Assembly: GCF_000184705.1 (NCBI RefSeq)
Contig: NC_014831.1
Location: 1,736,001-1,800,000, forward strand
DNA: 64,000 nucleotides
Reading direction: 5' to 3'
Source of the DNA: Thermaerobacter marianensis DSM 12885
GTDB lineage: Bacteria; Bacillota; Sulfobacillia; Thermaerobacterales; Thermaerobacteraceae
The position numbers and the translations under genes are program-made. The stretch's first letter is position 1; each line of letters opens with the position of its first letter. Below are positions 38,275 through 59,768 of the stretch, piece by piece. Under the pieces are notes generated by a model, which saw only the letters and a program-made list of their open reading frames with translations, ran no database searches and was not told the DNA's origin.

Positions 38275-40617
38275 TCACCGGGCCTCCTGCACCCGTGCCC
38301 TCGCCTCCCGGATCCGCTCCGCCAGCCAGTTGGGGTCGATCGGCATATGGTCGATCCGGATCCCGAAGGGTGCCAGGGCGTCTTCAATGGCGTCGGCGAA
38401 GAGGGCAGGTACGGGGATCACCCCCGCCTCCCCGGCCCCCTTGATCCCCAGGGGGTTCAAGGGCGACGGCGTCTCGATGTGGGCCGTCTCGATGGGCGGG
38501 ATCTCGGTCGCCGTGGGCAGCAGGTAGTCCATGAAGGACGCGTTGAGCAACTGGCCGTGCTCGTCGTACACCAGCCGCTCGTAGAAGCAGCCGCCGATGC
38601 CCTGGGCCACACCCCCATGGATCTGCCCGTCGAGGACCAGGGGGTTGATCACCCGACCGCAGTCGTGGACCACCACGTAGCGGAGGAACCGGACCATGCC
38701 CGTCTCGGGGTCGACCTCGACGATGGCGGCGTGGCACCCCGCCGCGAAGGTGCCCCGGGGCGGGGCGAAGTACCCCGAGGCCTCCAGGCCCGGGCCTTCC
38801 CACTCCTCCGGGATGGTCCCCCGCAGCGGGTTGGCCGCCCGGGCCACCTGGCCTAGGGAGACGGCGCGCTGGGGCGCCCCCTTGACCCGGACCATGCCGC
38901 CCGCCAGCTCCAGGTCCTCCGGCCGGGCCTCCAGCAGGCCGGCGGCCACCTGCAGGGCCTTCTCCCGCACCTTCACCGCCGCGTTGTAGCAGGCGTTGCC
39001 CGCCACCACCGCCCCGCGGCTGGCGAAGGTCCCCGTCCCCCAGCCGAAGAGGGCCGTATCCCCGGTGACCACCGTGACGTCGGCCGGGTCGACCCCCAGC
39101 TGGTCGGCCACGATCTGGGCGAAGGTGGTGGCGTGGGATTGGCCCTGGGTGCCCACACCCGTGGCGACGAAGACCTTCCCGGTGGGTTCCACCGTCACCC
39201 GGGCGCCCTCGTAGGGGCCGATGCCCGTCCCCTCCACGTAGAAGGCCACGCCCAGGCCCACGTAGCGGCCCTCCGCCCGATACTGTTCCCGGACCTCCGG
39301 CCAGCGGTCGTAACCGATCATCTCCAGGCACTTCTCCAGCACCGCCGGGTAGTTGCCGCTGTCGTACACCAGAGGCGCGTTGTCCTGGTAGATCAGGCCC
39401 ACGTCGTAGGGGAACTCGCCGGGCTGGATGAAGTTGCGCCGCCGCACCTCGTTGGGGTCGAGTCCCAGGTGTTCGGCGATGCGCTTGATCACCCGCTCCA
39501 TGACGAAGACCCCGTGGGGCCGGCCGGCGCCCCGGTAAGGGCTGGTCTGGGTCTTGTTGGTGTACACGGCCTTGAACTCGGCGCGGTAGTTGGGGATCTT
39601 GTAGGGCCCCGGCAGCGTGCACTCGGCCACGATGGGGATGATCAGGCCGTAGGCGGCGAAGGCCCCGCAATCGTGGAGGAACACCGTCTGCAGCGCCAGG
39701 ACGCGGCCTTCGTCGTCGAACCCCACCTCCACGTCGTGGATCTGCAGCCGCTCGTGGTTGGTGGCAACGAAGTGCTCCTTGCGGTCCTCGATCCACTTGA
39801 CGGGCCGGCCCAGGCGCATGGCCGCCAGGGGGATCAGCACCTCTTCCGGGTAGAACATCATGACCTTGGGGCCGAACCCGCCGCCCACGTCGGGGGCGAC
39901 GACCCGCACCCGCTGCTGGGGCAGGCCCAGCATCTCCGCCAGCCCGTTGCGGATGGGGATCGGCGCCTGGGTGGAGTCCCACACCGTCAGGCTGCCGTCC
40001 TGGGGGTCGAACCGGGCCACCACGCCCCGGGTCTCCAGGGGCGAGGCCGCCCCCCGCTCCAGGGAGAAGCGGGCCCGGAGCACGTGGGGTGCCTGCCGGA
40101 TCGCCTCCTGGAAGTTGCCTACCTCCTGGACGTAGTGGGCGGCGATGTTGTCGCCCAGGTCGGGGTAGATGACGGGCGCCCCCGGCCGGACCGCCTCTTC
40201 CAGGTCGACCACCGCGGGCAGCGGCTCGTATTCCACCTCGATGAGCTCCAGGGCATCTTCTGCCAGGTAGCGGCTCTCCGCCACCACCAGGGCCACCGGC
40301 TCCCCCACATGGCGCACGATGCCGGGGGCCAGGGCGTACTGGGTCTTCGCCCGCAGGGCCGGATGGGGGATCAGCAGGGGCAGGGGCCCCGCCAGCGGCC
40401 CGAGGTCCTGGTTCGTCCAGACCAGGTGGACTCCGGGCAAGGCCTGCGCCCGGCGGGTGTCGATGCGCCGGATCCGGGCGTGGGCGTGGGGGCTGCGCAG
40501 GACGGCGGCGTGGAGCATGCCCGGCAGGTGGACGTCGTCCACGTAGGTGCCGCGGCCGGTTAACAGCCGCGGGTCCTCGTTGCGCCGCACCGGCTGGCCG
40601 AAATGCCGTGTTGCCAT
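38275..40617 (-). CDS. Molybdenum hydroxylase large subunit (xanthine dehydrogenase family, form II CoxL-like)
   Basis: 780 residues. Mo-binding domains with VGEPVALVVAESRYLAEDALELIEVEYEPLP, APDVGGGFGPKVMMFYPEE, the active-site loop SPYRGAGRPHG (residues about 359-368, the AYRGAGR form II pattern), VGTQGQSHATTFAQIVADQLG, VVVHDCGRVINPLVLDGQIHGGVAQGIGG and the catalytic Glu in IKGAGEAGVIP. Form II proteins are not CO dehydrogenases; they hydroxylate heterocycles or aldehydes. In this locus uracil or a purine is the natural candidate. The ATG lies 1 nt after the stop of the iron-sulfur subunit gene (TGACATG). Confidence 0.93.
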   Translation of the reverse strand: MATRHFGQPVRRNEDPRLLTGRGTYVDDVHLPGMLHAAVLRSPHAHARIRRIDTRRAQALPGVHLVWTNQDLGPLAGPLPLLIPHPALRAKTQYALAPGIVRHVGEPVALVVAESRYLAEDALELIEVEYEPLPAVVDLEEAVRPGAPVIYPDLGDNIAAHYVQEVGNFQEAIRQAPHVLRARFSLERGAASPLETRGVVARFDPQDGSLTVWDSTQAPIPIRNGLAEMLGLPQQRVRVVAPDVGGGFGPKVMMFYPEEVLIPLAAMRLGRPVKWIEDRKEHFVATNHERLQIHDVEVGFDDEGRVLALQTVFLHDCGAFAAYGLIIPIVAECTLPGPYKIPNYRAEFKAVYTNKTQTSPYRGAGRPHGVFVMERVIKRIAEHLGLDPNEVRRRNFIQPGEFPYDVGLIYQDNAPLVYDSGNYPAVLEKCLEMIGYDRWPEVREQYRAEGRYVGLGVAFYVEGTGIGPYEGARVTVEPTGKVFVATGVGTQGQSHATTFAQIVADQLGVDPADVTVVTGDTALFGWGTGTFASRGAVVAGNACYNAAVKVREKALQVAAGLLEARPEDLELAGGMVRVKGAPQRAVSLGQVARAANPLRGTIPEEWEGPGLEASGYFAPPRGTFAAGCHAAIVEVDPETGMVRFLRYVVVHDCGRVINPLVLDGQIHGGVAQGIGGCFYERLVYDEHGQLLNASFMDYLLPTATEIPPIETAHIETPSPLNPLGIKGAGEAGVIPVPALFADAIEDALAPFGIRIDHMPIDPNWLAERIREARARVQEAR

Positions 40618-40618
40618 G

Positions 40619-41446
40619 TCAGGGCCCCTCCCCCGTCACGGGCCGGTGGCTTGCCGGCGGAGCGGTCGTCCGGGCGGGCTCCCCTGCAGGGGCACCGGGA
40701 TTGGGATTCCCGGACCATCCGGATCCCCCGGCGGCATCCGCCATCCCCGCGGTACCGGCGGCGCGGGCCTGGCCGTCCGGCGGGACCGGTCCGCCGGTTC
40801 CGGCGAGCACCGGTTCGGTGCCCCCGGGCGCAGGGTCGGCGGGCCCCGGCACCTTGGGCACGGCGGGCACCGCCGGTGCACCCGTCTCCGCCAGCCGCCG
40901 GGCCGCCCGCTTGACGGCCTCGACGATGTGCTGGTAGCCCGTGCACCGGCAGAGGTTGCCGGAGAGGGCCTCGCGAATCGCCGCGTCGTCCAGGTCGGGA
41001 CCGGGCTGGTCGCGGAGGAACGCGGCCACCGTCAGCAAGAACCCCGGGGTGCAGAACCCGCACTGGAGGGCATGGGCCTCACGGAACGCCTCCTGGATCG
41101 GGTGCAGGGGCCCTTCCGCCGGCGCCAGGCCCTCCACCGTGGTGAGGCGGGCGCCATCGGCCTGCACGGCCAGCAACAGGCAGGAGCGCACCGGATCGCC
41201 GTCCCAGAGGACGGTGCACGCCCCGCACACGCCATGCTCACAGCCGACGTGGGTACCCGTCAGGCCCAGCTCGTGGCGGAGGAAGTCGGCCAGCAGCATG
41301 CGCACGGGCACCCGGCGCCGGTACGGGGTACCGTTGACCCACACGGTGATCTCCCGGCAGGGCTCGAACTCCCCGCCGCCCAGCGGCCCGATCCCTGACG
41401 GCGCCCCGGTGCCGGACCCCGGAGACCCGTGGTGCGCGCCCGTCAT
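40619..41446 (-). CDS. Molybdenum hydroxylase 2[2Fe-2S] subunit
   Basis: 275 residues. First cluster GCEHGVCGACTVLWDG with a further Cys at RSC, second cluster LQCGFCTPGF and [17 protein letters not shown]. The conserved part ends near residue 180; the remaining about 95 residues are a Pro/Gly/Ala-rich tail not seen in CoxS-type proteins. Start ATG overlaps the stop of the FAD subunit gene by 4 nt (ATGA). Confidence 0.93.
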   Translation of the reverse strand: MTGAHHGSPGSGTGAPSGIGPLGGGEFEPCREITVWVNGTPYRRRVPVRMLLADFLRHELGLTGTHVGCEHGVCGACTVLWDGDPVRSCLLLAVQADGARLTTVEGLAPAEGPLHPIQEAFREAHALQCGFCTPGFLLTVAAFLRDQPGPDLDDAAIREALSGNLCRCTGYQHIVEAVKRAARRLAETGAPAVPAVPKVPGPADPAPGGTEPVLAGTGGPVPPDGQARAAGTAGMADAAGGSGWSGNPNPGAPAGEPARTTAPPASHRPVTGEGP

Positions 41447-42345
41447 CCCCGTTCACCTCCACGGCCGGCCGAGACCGCGGCCGCAGCACGCCGGGCAGCC
41501 CGGTCCAGGGCGCGGCGGGTCAGGACGCCCGCCAGGCGGCGCCGGTAGGCCGCGCTGGCATGCAGGTCCGATTCGGGTTCGACCTCTTCTTCCACCAGGG
41601 CCGCCGCCTCCCGCCAGGTCGTCTCGCCCGGTTCCCGCCCGGCCAGGAACGCCTCGACGCTCCGGGCCCGCAGGGGTACCGGTCCCACACCGGCCAGCCC
41701 CAGCCGCACCCGGGCGATCCGGCCGGTTTCGTCCAGTTCCACGACGGCCGCTGCGGCCGCCAGGGCGAAGTCCCCGTGGCGACGGGCCACCTCTTCGAAG
41801 GCCCATCCCGCCCCGGGCGGAAGGACGGGGAGCGTCGCTTCCACCACCATCTCCGCCGGGTCCAGGGCCGTGGTGAAGTAGGTGAGGAAGAACTCGCCGG
41901 CCGGCACCTCCCGCTCGCCCGCCGGCCCGCGGGCGCGAACGGCACCGTCCAAAGTCACCCATACCGCGGGCAGTTCCGCGGCCGGGTCGGCGTGGGCCAG
42001 GCTGCCGCACACGGTGCCGCGGTGGCGGATGGCCGGGTGGCCGACCCAGCCCAGGGCTTCGGCCAGCAGGGGGCAGTGGCGCCGAACCGCCTCCGCCCTC
42101 TCCGCCTGCCGGTGCCGCACCAGGGCCCCGACGCGCAGCCGGCCGCCTTCCACCACCAGGGTATCGAGGCCCGGAATGCGGTTGACGTCGACCAGCGCCG
42201 CCGGGCGGGCCAGCCGGAAGTTGAGCAGGGGGATCAGCGACTGCCCGCCGGCCAGGACCTTGGCCTCGCCGCCGTAGCGGGCCAGCAGGTCGACGGCCTC
42301 TTCGACGGTCCGGGGGTCGTGATAGGCGAAGCGCGGCGGTTTCAT
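41443..42345 (-). CDS. Molybdenum hydroxylase FAD-binding subunit
   Basis: 300 residues, CoxM/XdhB-like. FAD sites [21 protein letters not shown] and [24 protein letters not shown]; substrate-side segments EVARRHGDFALAAAAAVVELDE and RIARVRLGLAGVGPVPLRA. ATG behind GAGAGGGACGTGG. First gene of the FAD-FeS-Mo order typical of coxMSL-type operons. Divergent from the PucR-type regulator. Confidence 0.93.
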   Translation of the reverse strand: MKPPRFAYHDPRTVEEAVDLLARYGGEAKVLAGGQSLIPLLNFRLARPAALVDVNRIPGLDTLVVEGGRLRVGALVRHRQAERAEAVRRHCPLLAEALGWVGHPAIRHRGTVCGSLAHADPAAELPAVWVTLDGAVRARGPAGEREVPAGEFFLTYFTTALDPAEMVVEATLPVLPPGAGWAFEEVARRHGDFALAAAAAVVELDETGRIARVRLGLAGVGPVPLRARSVEAFLAGREPGETTWREAAALVEEEVEPESDLHASAAYRRRLAGVLTRRALDRAARRAAAAVSAGRGGERG

Positions 42346-53681: not shown

Positions 53682-54845
53682 TCAGGCGCCGGCCGCGTAG
53701 GCTGCCGGGTCGCGCAGGAAGGCAGCCTTGCAATGGGCACAGCAGAAGTAGTAGCGCCGGCCCGCGTGTTCGGCCACGTGACGCGCCTCCGCGACCCGGA
53801 CCTGCATCCCGCAGACCGGATCGCGGGCCACCACCAGTGGGAACCCCTCCGCGCCCTCCGGCCCCACCGCCGTCCCGGCATCCCCGGGTACCGCGGCCGG
53901 CGCAGCCGCCGGCTCCGGGTGCCCGGACCCCGCCCCCACCGCCGGCCCGGGCTCCGCGCCGCCGGCCACGGCCAGCCCGGTGCGTGCCCCCAGACCGGTC
54001 CGCCGCTGGCGAATGATGTCGGCCAGGATCGCTACGGCGATCTCCTCCTGGGTCACCGAACCCAGGTCGAGCCCGGCCGGATTGCGGATGCGCTCCAGAT
54101 CCGCCGCGGGAACCCCTGCCGCCGCCAGCACCTCCTTGACGGCCGCCGCCCGGCGCCGGCTGGCCACCAGGGCCACGTAGGGCACGCCGGCCGCCAGCCA
54201 GCGTTGCAGGCACTCCTCGTCGAAGTGGCCCATGGAGGCGACGACCGCGTAGGCTTCCGGCGCCGGGTCGAAATCGGCCAGGGCGTCCACCGGGATCGCC
54301 CTGCCTCCGGGCAGGGTCGCCTCGGCGGGCGCCTCGCGCCCGTAAACCAGGACCGGCTCGAAGCCCACCATCGCCGCCAGCTGGGCCAGCGTCACGGCCA
54401 GGGGCGTGTCCCCGCAGGCGATCAACTGCGGGGGCCGGACGAAGGGCTCGATGTACACGTCCACCTCGCCACCGCTGGGGCAGGTCATGGCCACGGTGAC
54501 CACCCGGGCGTCACCCGCCCCGGCATCCGTCGCGGCGCCGTGATCGTGGCCGGTGGCGTCCCCGGCCGGGGCCTCGAGCCGGATCTGGACCAGCCGCGGC
54601 CGCCCGTCCGCCAGCGCGGCCAGGGCCTGCTCCCGTACCACCGACTCGGAGCAGCTGCCTCCGATCCACCCTTCCAGGTGGCCGTCGGCAGTGACCAGCG
54701 CCTTGTCCCCGGCGCGGGACGAGACCGGCGGCCGGCGCCGGATCACCGTCGCCAGGGCAAAGGACCGGCCCTGGGCGCGGAGCTCTGCCGCCCGCACCAG
54801 CACGGCGTCGGAACGCACCGCCACTCCCGGTGCCACCGGGCTCAC
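53682..54845 (-). CDS. XdhC/CoxI-family maturation protein fused to a YHS domain
   Basis: 387 residues, GTG start overlapping the coxG stop (GTGA). Residues 10-100: XdhC N-domain (RSFALATVIRRRPPVSSRAGDKALV, EGWIGGSCSESVVREQALAAL). Residues 135-270: XdhC C-terminal Rossmann domain (PQLIACGDTPLAVTLAQLAAMVGF, VVASMGHFDEECLQRWLAAGVPYVALVASRRR, RIRNPAGLDLGSVTQEEIAVAILADI). After a Gly/Ala/Pro linker, residues about 342-387 form a YHS domain (DPVCGMQV, then YYFCCAHCKAAFLRDPAAY) with four Cys able to bind a metal. XdhC proteins insert sulfurated Mo cofactor into hydroxylases. Last gene of the CO dehydrogenase operon. Confidence 0.9.
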   Translation of the reverse strand: MSPVAPGVAVRSDAVLVRAAELRAQGRSFALATVIRRRPPVSSRAGDKALVTADGHLEGWIGGSCSESVVREQALAALADGRPRLVQIRLEAPAGDATGHDHGAATDAGAGDARVVTVAMTCPSGGEVDVYIEPFVRPPQLIACGDTPLAVTLAQLAAMVGFEPVLVYGREAPAEATLPGGRAIPVDALADFDPAPEAYAVVASMGHFDEECLQRWLAAGVPYVALVASRRRAAAVKEVLAAAGVPAADLERIRNPAGLDLGSVTQEEIAVAILADIIRQRRTGLGARTGLAVAGGAEPGPAVGAGSGHPEPAAAPAAVPGDAGTAVGPEGAEGFPLVVARDPVCGMQVRVAEARHVAEHAGRRYYFCCAHCKAAFLRDPAAYAAGA

Positions 54846-55336
54846 GCCCCCTCGCTTGCGGCACTGGAACCGGCCGGGCCGGTACGGGCCCCGTTTTCCA
54901 GGCTGGCCCGGATCGAGGCGAACAGCTGCTCGGTGACCTTCCGGGCCTGGTTGTCCAGCAGCCGGCCGCCGACGGTCGCCAGCGGCCCGCTGACATCCGC
55001 GTCGGCCTCCCAGCGAAAACGGGTGGTCCCGTCACCCGCGGGCTCGAGCTCGATGCGGGCCTGCAGCTGCAGCCCGCTGCCCATGCCGCTGCCCCGCAGG
55101 CGCAGCCCCCCGCGCCGGGGCGCCTCCTCGGGCTGCAGTTCCACCTCCATCCGGAACCGCCCCCGTACCGGTCCGACGCCGATCCGGACCACTGCGTCGA
55201 AGTGCCGCTCATCCTTGATGTCCAGCTGCTGCAGGTCGGGCAGGCAAGGGCCCACCCGGGCCGGATCGTTGATGAACTCCCAGACCTTCTCCTGCGGGGC
55301 CGCGATGGTCAGTTCCCCGTCGTAGTGCAGGTGCAC
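54842..55336 (-). CDS. coxG: CO dehydrogenase accessory protein CoxG (SRPBCC fold)
   Basis: 164 residues. YDGELTIAAPQEKVWEFINDPARVGPCLPDLQQLDI is the typical opening; FRWEADADVSGPLATVGGRLLDNQARKVTEQLFASIRASL matches the CoxG C-terminus. Start set at GTG 55336 because GGGGAGG lies 8 nt upstream and homologues begin here; ATG 55369 would add 11 residues without a ribosome site. In Oligotropha, CoxG anchors CO dehydrogenase to the membrane, and related proteins bind menaquinone, so it may link the enzyme to the respiratory chain. About 100 bp downstream of coxL. Confidence 0.9.
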   Translation of the reverse strand: MHLHYDGELTIAAPQEKVWEFINDPARVGPCLPDLQQLDIKDERHFDAVVRIGVGPVRGRFRMEVELQPEEAPRRGGLRLRGSGMGSGLQLQARIELEPAGDGTTRFRWEADADVSGPLATVGGRLLDNQARKVTEQLFASIRASLENGARTGPAGSSAASEGA

Positions 55337-55439
55337 TGCGGTTGCCTCCCCACTGGTAGCGACCGGCATGCTTGGGGGGATGCCGCCCCCGGGGGCCGGC
55401 CGGACGAACCCGGCCGGCCCCTCCCGCGCCCCGTACCCT

Positions 55440-57784
<2,345 letters not shown>

Positions 57785-57785
<1 letters not shown>

Positions 57786-58333
57786 CAGTCGCTCCCCCCT
57801 CTCGTGTTCGGCTCCGCCGCGGCTGCCACGCCCTCCGCCGCCGGCGCCGCGGCCGGTACCTCGCCCCGCAGCTCGGCCGCGGCCTGCTGGATCGCCTTGA
57901 CGATGTTCTGGTAGCCGGTGCACCGGCACAGGTTGCCGGAGATGGCGAGGCGGATCTCGGCCTCCGTGGGATTGGGGTTGCGCTGCAGCAGTGCGTACGC
58001 GCTCATCAGCATGCCGGGCGTGCAGTAGCCACACTGAAGCCCGTGCTGGTCCCAGAAGCCCTTCTGGAGGGGGTGGAGTTCCCCGTCCCGGGCCAGCCCT
58101 TCCACGGTCAGGATCTCGCTGCCGTCCGCCTGCACGGCGAACACCGTGCACGACTTCACGGCCCGCCCGTCCATCACCACCGTGCAGGCGCCGCAACTGG
58201 TGGTGTCACAGCCGACGTGGGTACCGGTCAGGCCGAGGTCCTCCCGCAGGAAGTAGACCAGCAAGCGCCGGGGCTCCACCTCGCGCTCGTACCTCTCCCC
58301 GTTCACCGTCACCGTGATCCGTCGGGTTCCCAC
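57785..58333 (-). CDS. coxS: Aerobic CO dehydrogenase small (2[2Fe-2S]) subunit
   Basis: 182 residues from GTG 58333, 8 nt after AGGAGG; the GTG at 58342 overlaps that ribosome site and is unlikely. First cluster [16 protein letters not shown] and KSC, second [18 protein letters not shown] and [21 protein letters not shown]. The tail of about 20 Ala/Pro residues is short compared with the paralogue at 40619-41446. Confidence 0.95.
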
Positions 58334-58346
58334 CCACCACACCTCC

Positions 58347-59219
58347 TCACGCTGCCCGGGCCCGTTCCACGGCCTGTTGCAACGCCCGGCGGGTCAGCAC
58401 CCGCACCATGTCCCGCTTGTATTCCGCCGGCCCGCGCTGGTCGGAGACGGGGTCCGCCTCCTCGGCCGCCACGGAGGCCGCCTCGGCGAGGACGTCTTCG
58501 GTCAGGGTCCGGCCGAGCAGGTATTCCTCGGCCTGCCGGGCCCGTAGGGAGATGGACCCCACGCCGCAGAGCCCGATCCCGGCCCGCGTGCACTCGCCCG
58601 CCGCGTTGAGGGTGACCTGCACCCCCACCGCCGCGATGGCGAAATCACCCACCTTGCGCTCCAGCTTGAGGTAGGCCCCTCCCGTCCGCTCCGGCGGGAC
58701 GGGAACCCGCACCTCGGTGAGCAGCTCGTCCTCCCCCAGGGCCGTGGTGAAGGTGTCCAGCAGAAAGTCGTCGACGGACAGGGTCCGGGAACCGTCGGGG
58801 CCTGTGAGCACCACCTGCGCCCCGGCCGCCAGCAGGGCCGCCCCCCAGTCGCCGGCCGGGTCGGCGTGGGCCAGGGACCCGGCCACGGTGCCCCGGTTGC
58901 GGACCAGGGGATCGGCGACCACCCGCGCCGTCGCCACCAGCAGGGGATACCGGCGTTCGAGACCGGGCGCGAACTCCACGTCGGAGTGCCGGGTGAGGGC
59001 CCCCAGGCGGAGGAACCCGCCTTCCTCCCGGAAATACGCCAGTTCCTCGATCCGGTTGATGTCCACCAGCAGGGCCGGCTCCAACAGGCGAAACCGGAGC
59101 ATGGGGATCAGGCTCTGGCCGCCGGCGATCACCTTGGCCTCGTCGCCGTGCCGGCGCAACAGCTGCACGGCCTCGGCAACCGTCTGAGGTGCGACGTAGT
59201 CGAAGGGCGGCGTGATCAT
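58347..59219 (-). CDS. coxM: Aerobic CO dehydrogenase medium (FAD) subunit
   Basis: 290 residues. FAD sites [21 protein letters not shown] and [44 protein letters not shown] and [18 protein letters not shown] downstream. ATG 59219 behind GGAAGAGGGGGAG. First gene of the cox operon in the order M-S-L-G-XdhC/YHS. Confidence 0.95.
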
Positions 59220-59768
59220 GACACTCCCCCTCTTCCGGGCCGGTCCGGCCAGGCGATGGCAGGCCGCACCCGGTGGTCCGAGCGGGGAACAGGCAGCCCG
59301 CGTGGGCACGGGGTGGGATGGTTGCATGGAGGGTGAGAACTGGTTGTGCGCGCTGGCATCGCCCGCCGCACCGTGACCCGCCTGCCCCCAGCGTCAAGGC
59401 GGTCTCTCGATGATGATGTTCGGCCCTTCAAGGGGGATTCCTGTTGGATATCCTCAACAACTTTACGATATGACGATGATCATCGCATGTTGATCGACAA
59501 CAATCGTCACCGGCCGGACCCCGGCCAAGGCCGGCCTGGACGCGATGCCGGACCGCGGGCACCGGCCGCACCGAGGCGGCCCCGATGTCACGGACCCGCT
59601 GCCCGCGACAACCGGCGGCTGGAAGCGGATCCTCCGGACGCCCCTCTCACCCGCAGAGACGCGTTGGGACGCGGGGTCGTCGCTGCGCCTCGGCAGGGTC
59701 GTCCACGCAAGCGGGCCCGCGGCCCACGCCAGATCCCAGGTGCCGCGAGCCGCCCAGGCCCCCTTCCG
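59220..59768. other. 549-bp region upstream of the cox operon
   Basis: Between coxM and the PH-domain gene, both read leftwards. An AT-rich patch at 59400-59510 carries three palindromic elements (59441-59460, 59474-59485, 59487-59503) and is the likely promoter and operator region of coxMSL. The rest is GC-rich without a convincing gene. Confidence 0.65.
59441..59503 (-). promoter_or_regulatory. Cluster of palindromes upstream of coxM
   Basis: CTGTTG-N8-CAACAA at 59441-59460, the perfect 12-bp palindrome CGATGATCATCG at 59474-59485, and ATGTTG-N5-CAACAA at 59487-59503. The TGTTG/CAACA half-sites repeat across about 60 bp. No clear sigma-A hexamer pair could be assigned, which fits activator-dependent expression. 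Confidence 0.5.

Follow-up and report, generated by a model that had tools for sequence, protein, structure and literature searches.

A YHS domain at the C-terminus of CoxF, the form I-specific XdhC-family maturase, as candidate copper-handling module of Mo-Cu CO dehydrogenase

Mo-Cu CO dehydrogenase lets bacteria live on carbon monoxide. In the window analysed here, a stretch of 64,000 nucleotides from the genome of Thermaerobacter marianensis DSM 12885, a set of genes for this enzyme is laid out on the minus strand in the order coxM-coxS-coxL-coxG-xdhC(coxF)-YHS, with no coxDE adjoining. The operon comprises coxM, coding for the FAD subunit (58347..59327, an open reading frame the start of which is possibly further in), coxS, coding for the [2Fe-2S] subunit (57785..58342), form I coxL (55440..57785) and coxG (54842..55369, with an inferred start). 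CoxL displays the active-site motif AYRCSFR and scores 1257 bits with TIGR02416, the cut-off being 991. The last gene of the operon, a coxF-type xdhC (53682..54845, minus strand), codes for 387 amino acids and starts with GTG, its start overlapping the stop of coxG by 4 nucleotides. The genome, a single 2.84-Mb contig, has no other form I coxL, the remaining Mo-hydroxylase large subunits having AYRGAGR or PYRGAGR, or no motif. A second Mo-hydroxylase set (M, S and L), also on the minus strand and with PYRGAGR, is located at about 38305-42339 of the window.

The product of this last gene combines three domains in a single chain, all of them above the Pfam cut-offs, and all coded on the minus strand. 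An XdhC_CoxI domain (PF02625, residues 23-87, 54585..54779, E 6.7e-20), within which C65 of the GGSC motif is invariant, is followed by the CoxF signature MTCPSGG (residues 120-126, 54468..54488), where C122, S124 and G126 are invariant, and by an XdhC_C Rossmann domain (PF13478, residues 141-277, 54015..54425, E 5e-26), with 2we7/2we8 as its fold matches. An unstructured, fast-changing linker (residues 294-334, 53844..53966, pLDDT <50) then leads to a YHS domain (PF04945, residues 341-385, 53691..53825, E 2.4e-13), which scores 50.3 bits for a Pfam cut-off of 30.3, so that its assignment is not due to chance. Neither is the fusion an assembly artefact, since another genome of the genus has a 75%-identical coxF-YHS gene next to its coxL. 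The preliminary description of this DNA had proposed an XdhC-type protein fused to YHS in the operon of a Cu-Mo enzyme, and both the Pfam domains and the AYRCSFR motif of CoxL bear this out. The XdhC equivalogs remain below their curated cut-offs for this protein (23.6 versus 161.6 bits with TIGR02964, 106 versus 350 bits with NF045664).

Which XdhC this is can be read from its relatives. The cox cluster of Oligotropha carboxidovorans encodes two XdhC-like proteins, CoxF and CoxI (PMC2997495). Using profiles built from annotated plasmid cox clusters we scored every locus, and 84 XdhC cores were placed in a maximum-likelihood tree, the root of which is not fixed. All CoxI or form II-type proteins fall on one side of this tree (100/99) and the CoxF-type proteins on the other (100/99), including the window protein, which groups with O. 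carboxidovorans CoxF and apart from CoxI. A motif of the core loop divides the family in the same way: C-x-S-x-G is present in 50/51 CoxF-type proteins versus 0/48 of the CoxI type, which mostly have C-x-G at that site. The sole exception on the CoxF side is a second, YHS-less XdhC in the form I cluster of a member of the Chromatiaceae (L018:11693-12544), which branches outside all other CoxF proteins. On account of its position in the tree and of its CxSxG core motif, the window protein is CoxF, the form I-specific maturase of the XdhC family, with a YHS tail. Its counterpart encoded by plasmid pHCG3 of O. carboxidovorans (280 amino acids) belongs likewise to a form I cluster, has the same XdhC_CoxI and XdhC_C domains as well as CxSxG, falls in the same clade and is 36% identical to the window protein over the XdhC part; unlike the latter, however, it has neither linker nor YHS and is placed after coxDE, whereas the window has the order M-S-L-G-F without adjacent DE. 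Similarly, the CoxI or PaoD-like XdhCs found beside form II CO dehydrogenases and other Mo-hydroxylases share the two XdhC domains, but make a separate clade with C-x-G and are never fused to YHS in our sample. It has been proposed that MCPSHGTM is the copper motif of O. carboxidovorans CoxF (PMC4240915). In the window protein, MTCPSGG occupies the same place. Because the loop cysteine of CoxF aligns with that of CoxI-type proteins, the proposed motif holds a family-wide cysteine in a CoxF-specific setting.

The YHS tail has a putative metal site made of D342, C345, C368 and C372, the assignment of one Asp and three Cys following previous work (PMC4626032). This ligand set, D-x2-C-x22-C-x3-C, is near-invariant across the fusions. 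Conservation was read from alignments A1 and A2, a count by residue pattern probably mis-registering 2/38 rows, and the four residues are invariant in 30/30 rows of A2, where identity to the window protein goes down to about 31%. The four YHS cysteines that had been pointed out at the outset are indeed all present (C345, C368, C369 and C372), but only three of them are conserved, together with D342, while C369 varies. The structure of the domain, modelled from A2 with the plasmid rows left out, is predicted with a pLDDT of about 90, and its nearest solved folds, with weak E-values, are eL24 (TRASH) and the YHS of toluene/phenol hydroxylase. Matches of the isolated domain to zinc fingers in the PDB were discarded, as no single domain among them was significant. 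Between the two fusion-bearing genomes of one pair in the genus, dN/dS amounts to 0.26 for YHS, 0.45 for the linker and 0.10 for the core, and identity between two genomes falls to 30% in the linker; the YHS domain is under purifying selection. The genome has three YHS domains in all. Besides that of CoxF, one makes up a stand-alone protein of 103 amino acids (L036:4294-4605, minus strand) and one belongs to a P-type ATPase (L037:2087-4813, minus strand, at 1.88 Mb). The latter shares DPVCGM...FC...C with CoxF-YHS, but there the YHS is at the N-terminus of a membrane pump that also has HMA and that we read as copper-type from its CPC and GMHCASC motifs.

The company kept by the fusion is almost perfectly constant. 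Among the four genomes of the genus, both of those with form I coxL carry it (at 100 and 75% identity) while the two without form I coxL do not, yet keep a CoxD that is 95% identical. We extended the search to 154 genomes of the class, 25 of them above the form I cut-off, plus one (G400) with a fragmentary form I coxL recognized by AYRCSFR. A profile built from 35 fusions gave scores of 374-440 bits for 25 full-length fusions; the best-scoring XdhC after these reached 150 bits and ends before YHS. All 25 fusion genomes have form I coxL, and no full-length XdhC-YHS is found in the 128 class genomes without it. The sole form I genome of the class lacking a full fusion (G429) has the gene on a 3.1-kb contig that ends inside coxF. 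Five families contain these fusions, and several genera include both genomes with and genomes without one. Across 398 genomes of the phylum, one further full-length fusion came up outside the class, in G497, again beside form I coxL. Form II has AYRGAGR in place of the Cys motif (PMC13240472), as do the form II loci examined here, and 0/19 of their XdhC neighbours are fused to YHS. The fusion thus tracks form I coxL, as had been anticipated, and equal occurrence in form II-only genomes is not what is seen. To be sure, if the entire operon is inherited as one block, this could account for part of the co-occurrence. In the genome with a fragmentary form I coxL, the gene is in pieces (L137, G400:C52), the adjoining CoxF-YHS, coxG, coxD and coxE being intact.

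Outside the phylum we scanned the GTDB collection with exact patterns from the window protein, which makes the following a sample. All nine full-length fusions recovered from other phyla (Acidobacteriota, Actinomycetota, Eremiobacterota and Gammaproteobacteria) are in cox context, seven of them with AYRCSFR adjoining. As for the other two, similarity places the coxL of L017 with form I (62-73%, against 41-50% for form II), its motif falling in a run of N, and the fusion of L016 lies near a contig end, where no form I coxL is readable. Plasmid-borne fusions exist in Thermomicrobium, Paraburkholderia, Caballeronia and Natronorubrum, which places them also in haloarchaea. Deinococcus has a degenerate version (L044:7986-9047, SPVDGE...YYFTCANC), perhaps on its way to loss. 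CoxF without YHS, for its part, comes from nine alphaproteobacterial clusters and from one cluster of the actinomycete Nonomuraea. On the tree, the presence of YHS needs three changes, for example one gain and two losses; this pattern suggests that the domain is likely ancestral in CoxF and was probably lost in Alphaproteobacteria, O. carboxidovorans included, and in Nonomuraea. Proteins of the MHYT type accompany all nine YHS-less alphaproteobacterial clusters (L045, L078-L085), the only other form I locus with MHYT being L018, with a weak match. We considered MHYT as a substitute for YHS and rejected it: CoxC acts as a regulator that responds to CO and depends on copper (PMC11347149), and in view of this role the association is lineage-bound and no evidence of substitution.

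What could a YHS domain do on this particular maturase? A copper role of YHS-less CoxF, which the preliminary description had overlooked, is already in the literature: CO dehydrogenase from coxE or coxF mutants of O. carboxidovorans contains sulfurated Mo species and no copper (PMC4240915). Each of these mutants lacks both proteins (PMC4240915), hence the copper defect cannot be assigned to CoxF alone. Elsewhere, a C-terminal YHS mediates the specific activation by Cu2+ of an adenylyl cyclase of Mycobacterium phlei; as in the window protein, the domain is C-terminal with one Asp and three Cys as ligands, but it is attached to a cyclase, where it is reported to be a Cu2+ sensor (PMC4626032). 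From these cases, and with another YHS of this genome seated on the copper-type pump, we infer that the YHS of CoxF binds copper, and within our survey it is the best candidate for the copper-handling part. The reading that we favour, and hold to be reasonably probable, is that of a two-module CoxF. Its XdhC core would dock on the folded apo-enzyme, or on Moco, and protect the sulfurated Mo, while the YHS, on its flexible linker, would bind copper and pass it to the Mo-bound sulfur, perhaps via the MxC of the core, giving [CuSMoO2]. CoxD and CoxE would act beside CoxF where they are present, without being replaced by it. In Alphaproteobacteria, where YHS is missing and probably lost, copper would have to reach CoxF in another way. 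This touches upon the main counter-evidence, namely that O. carboxidovorans CoxF works without YHS. As it is the sole CoxF to have been tested genetically, YHS is not generally required for copper insertion, and the degenerate domain of Deinococcus also counts against a copper role.

The alternative that survives best, while unlikely in our view, keeps the protein as CoxF but denies its YHS any copper: the domain would either hold zinc or iron in a structural role or serve for docking to CoxL, CoxE or the membrane. Its fold matches, eL24 (TRASH) and subunits of toluene/phenol hydroxylases, are in keeping with this. The metal of a YHS/TRASH domain may also be another one, as with Cd in L24e, or be absent, as in the crystal of toluene-4-hydroxylase, which demonstrates that a YHS need not be metallic (PMC4626032). 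Specificity for form I would also be expected of a domain recognizing the form I enzyme. However, conservation is higher for D-x2-C-x22-C-x3-C than for the remainder of the domain, the residue directly following the second Cys among it, and the domain tracks precisely the form of the enzyme that has a copper-ligand cysteine motif. Much less probable is an involvement of the YHS cysteines in sulfur chemistry, as a persulfide relay or in protection of Mo=S, rather than in copper delivery. XdhCs do take part in the sulfuration of Moco, with one nearly universal cysteine (PMC2997495), and the domain supplies extra thiols; yet other enzymes of the xanthine oxidase family need sulfurated Mo as well (PMC2997495) and the form II neighbours have no YHS, whereas what the coxF mutant keeps is sulfurated Mo and what it lacks is copper (PMC4240915). 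We give just as little credit to the idea that YHS is a copper sensor gating the activity of CoxF and not a donor. The mycobacterial cyclase, where YHS switches a catalytic domain on Cu2+ (PMC4626032), provides a precedent, but a tethered metal site in the vicinity of a copper-dependent apo-enzyme is more simply a donor, and a long, disordered and fast-evolving linker is more what one expects of a mobile carrier than of a rigid switch.

There remains the relationship with CoxD and CoxE, which, in the preliminary description, the fusion was suggested to replace. Among form I fusion loci, coxD and coxE are both near coxL in 25/37 and not so in 12/37, a few of which are cut by contig ends; L153 is an additional fusion locus with both genes. 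A coxD homologue exists in 24/25 class genomes above the form I cut-off and in 5/6 genomes tested outside the class. None is found on the plasmid of Thermomicrobium roseum, the plasmid alone having been searched. The window genome itself has both genes, at a distance of some 45-60 kb from its cox genes: coxD with its CoxI-type XdhC (L034:6310-8949, genome 1834309-1836948) and a coxE-like VWA gene (L035:3506-5530, genome 1848505-1850529), separated by about 12 kb in which an IS transposase and genes for sugar transport lie. This CoxD, 51-67% identical to annotated CoxD proteins, may serve another enzyme, since CoxD is also present where form I coxL is absent. Because the adjoining XdhC, too, is conserved in those members of the genus, the two genes probably serve another Mo enzyme. 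With both genes so widely retained, a takeover of their functions by XdhC-YHS where they are missing is almost certainly wrong, even though several operons have no adjacent coxDE (those of the window, T. roseum, G055, G425, G331, G387, G388 and G379), and the fusion does not follow the absence of coxDE.

CoxF and YHS are each known already. What is new is a distribution exclusive to form I that extends over several phyla, with a likely loss in the model lineage; among the papers searched, none joins XdhC or CO dehydrogenase with YHS, while domain databases may show the architecture. A bolder proposal goes further than the two-module CoxF, and we consider it somewhat improbable: all Mo-Cu CO dehydrogenases would ancestrally have been loaded with copper by the YHS-tailed CoxF, the textbook model of maturation would derive from a lineage that lost YHS, and most CO oxidizers would load copper via an undescribed tethered YHS carrier. 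On the practical side, the fusion together with AYxCSFR makes a marker separating form I from form II cox clusters. As to the route of copper to the Mo-Cu site, the only model that we found rests on one alphaproteobacterium and on a guessed motif. In most of the other lineages sampled, the copper maturase carries a domain whose family includes a member reported to respond to copper, and this domain is absent beside the copper-less sister enzymes, which opens the question of copper delivery to a direct test.
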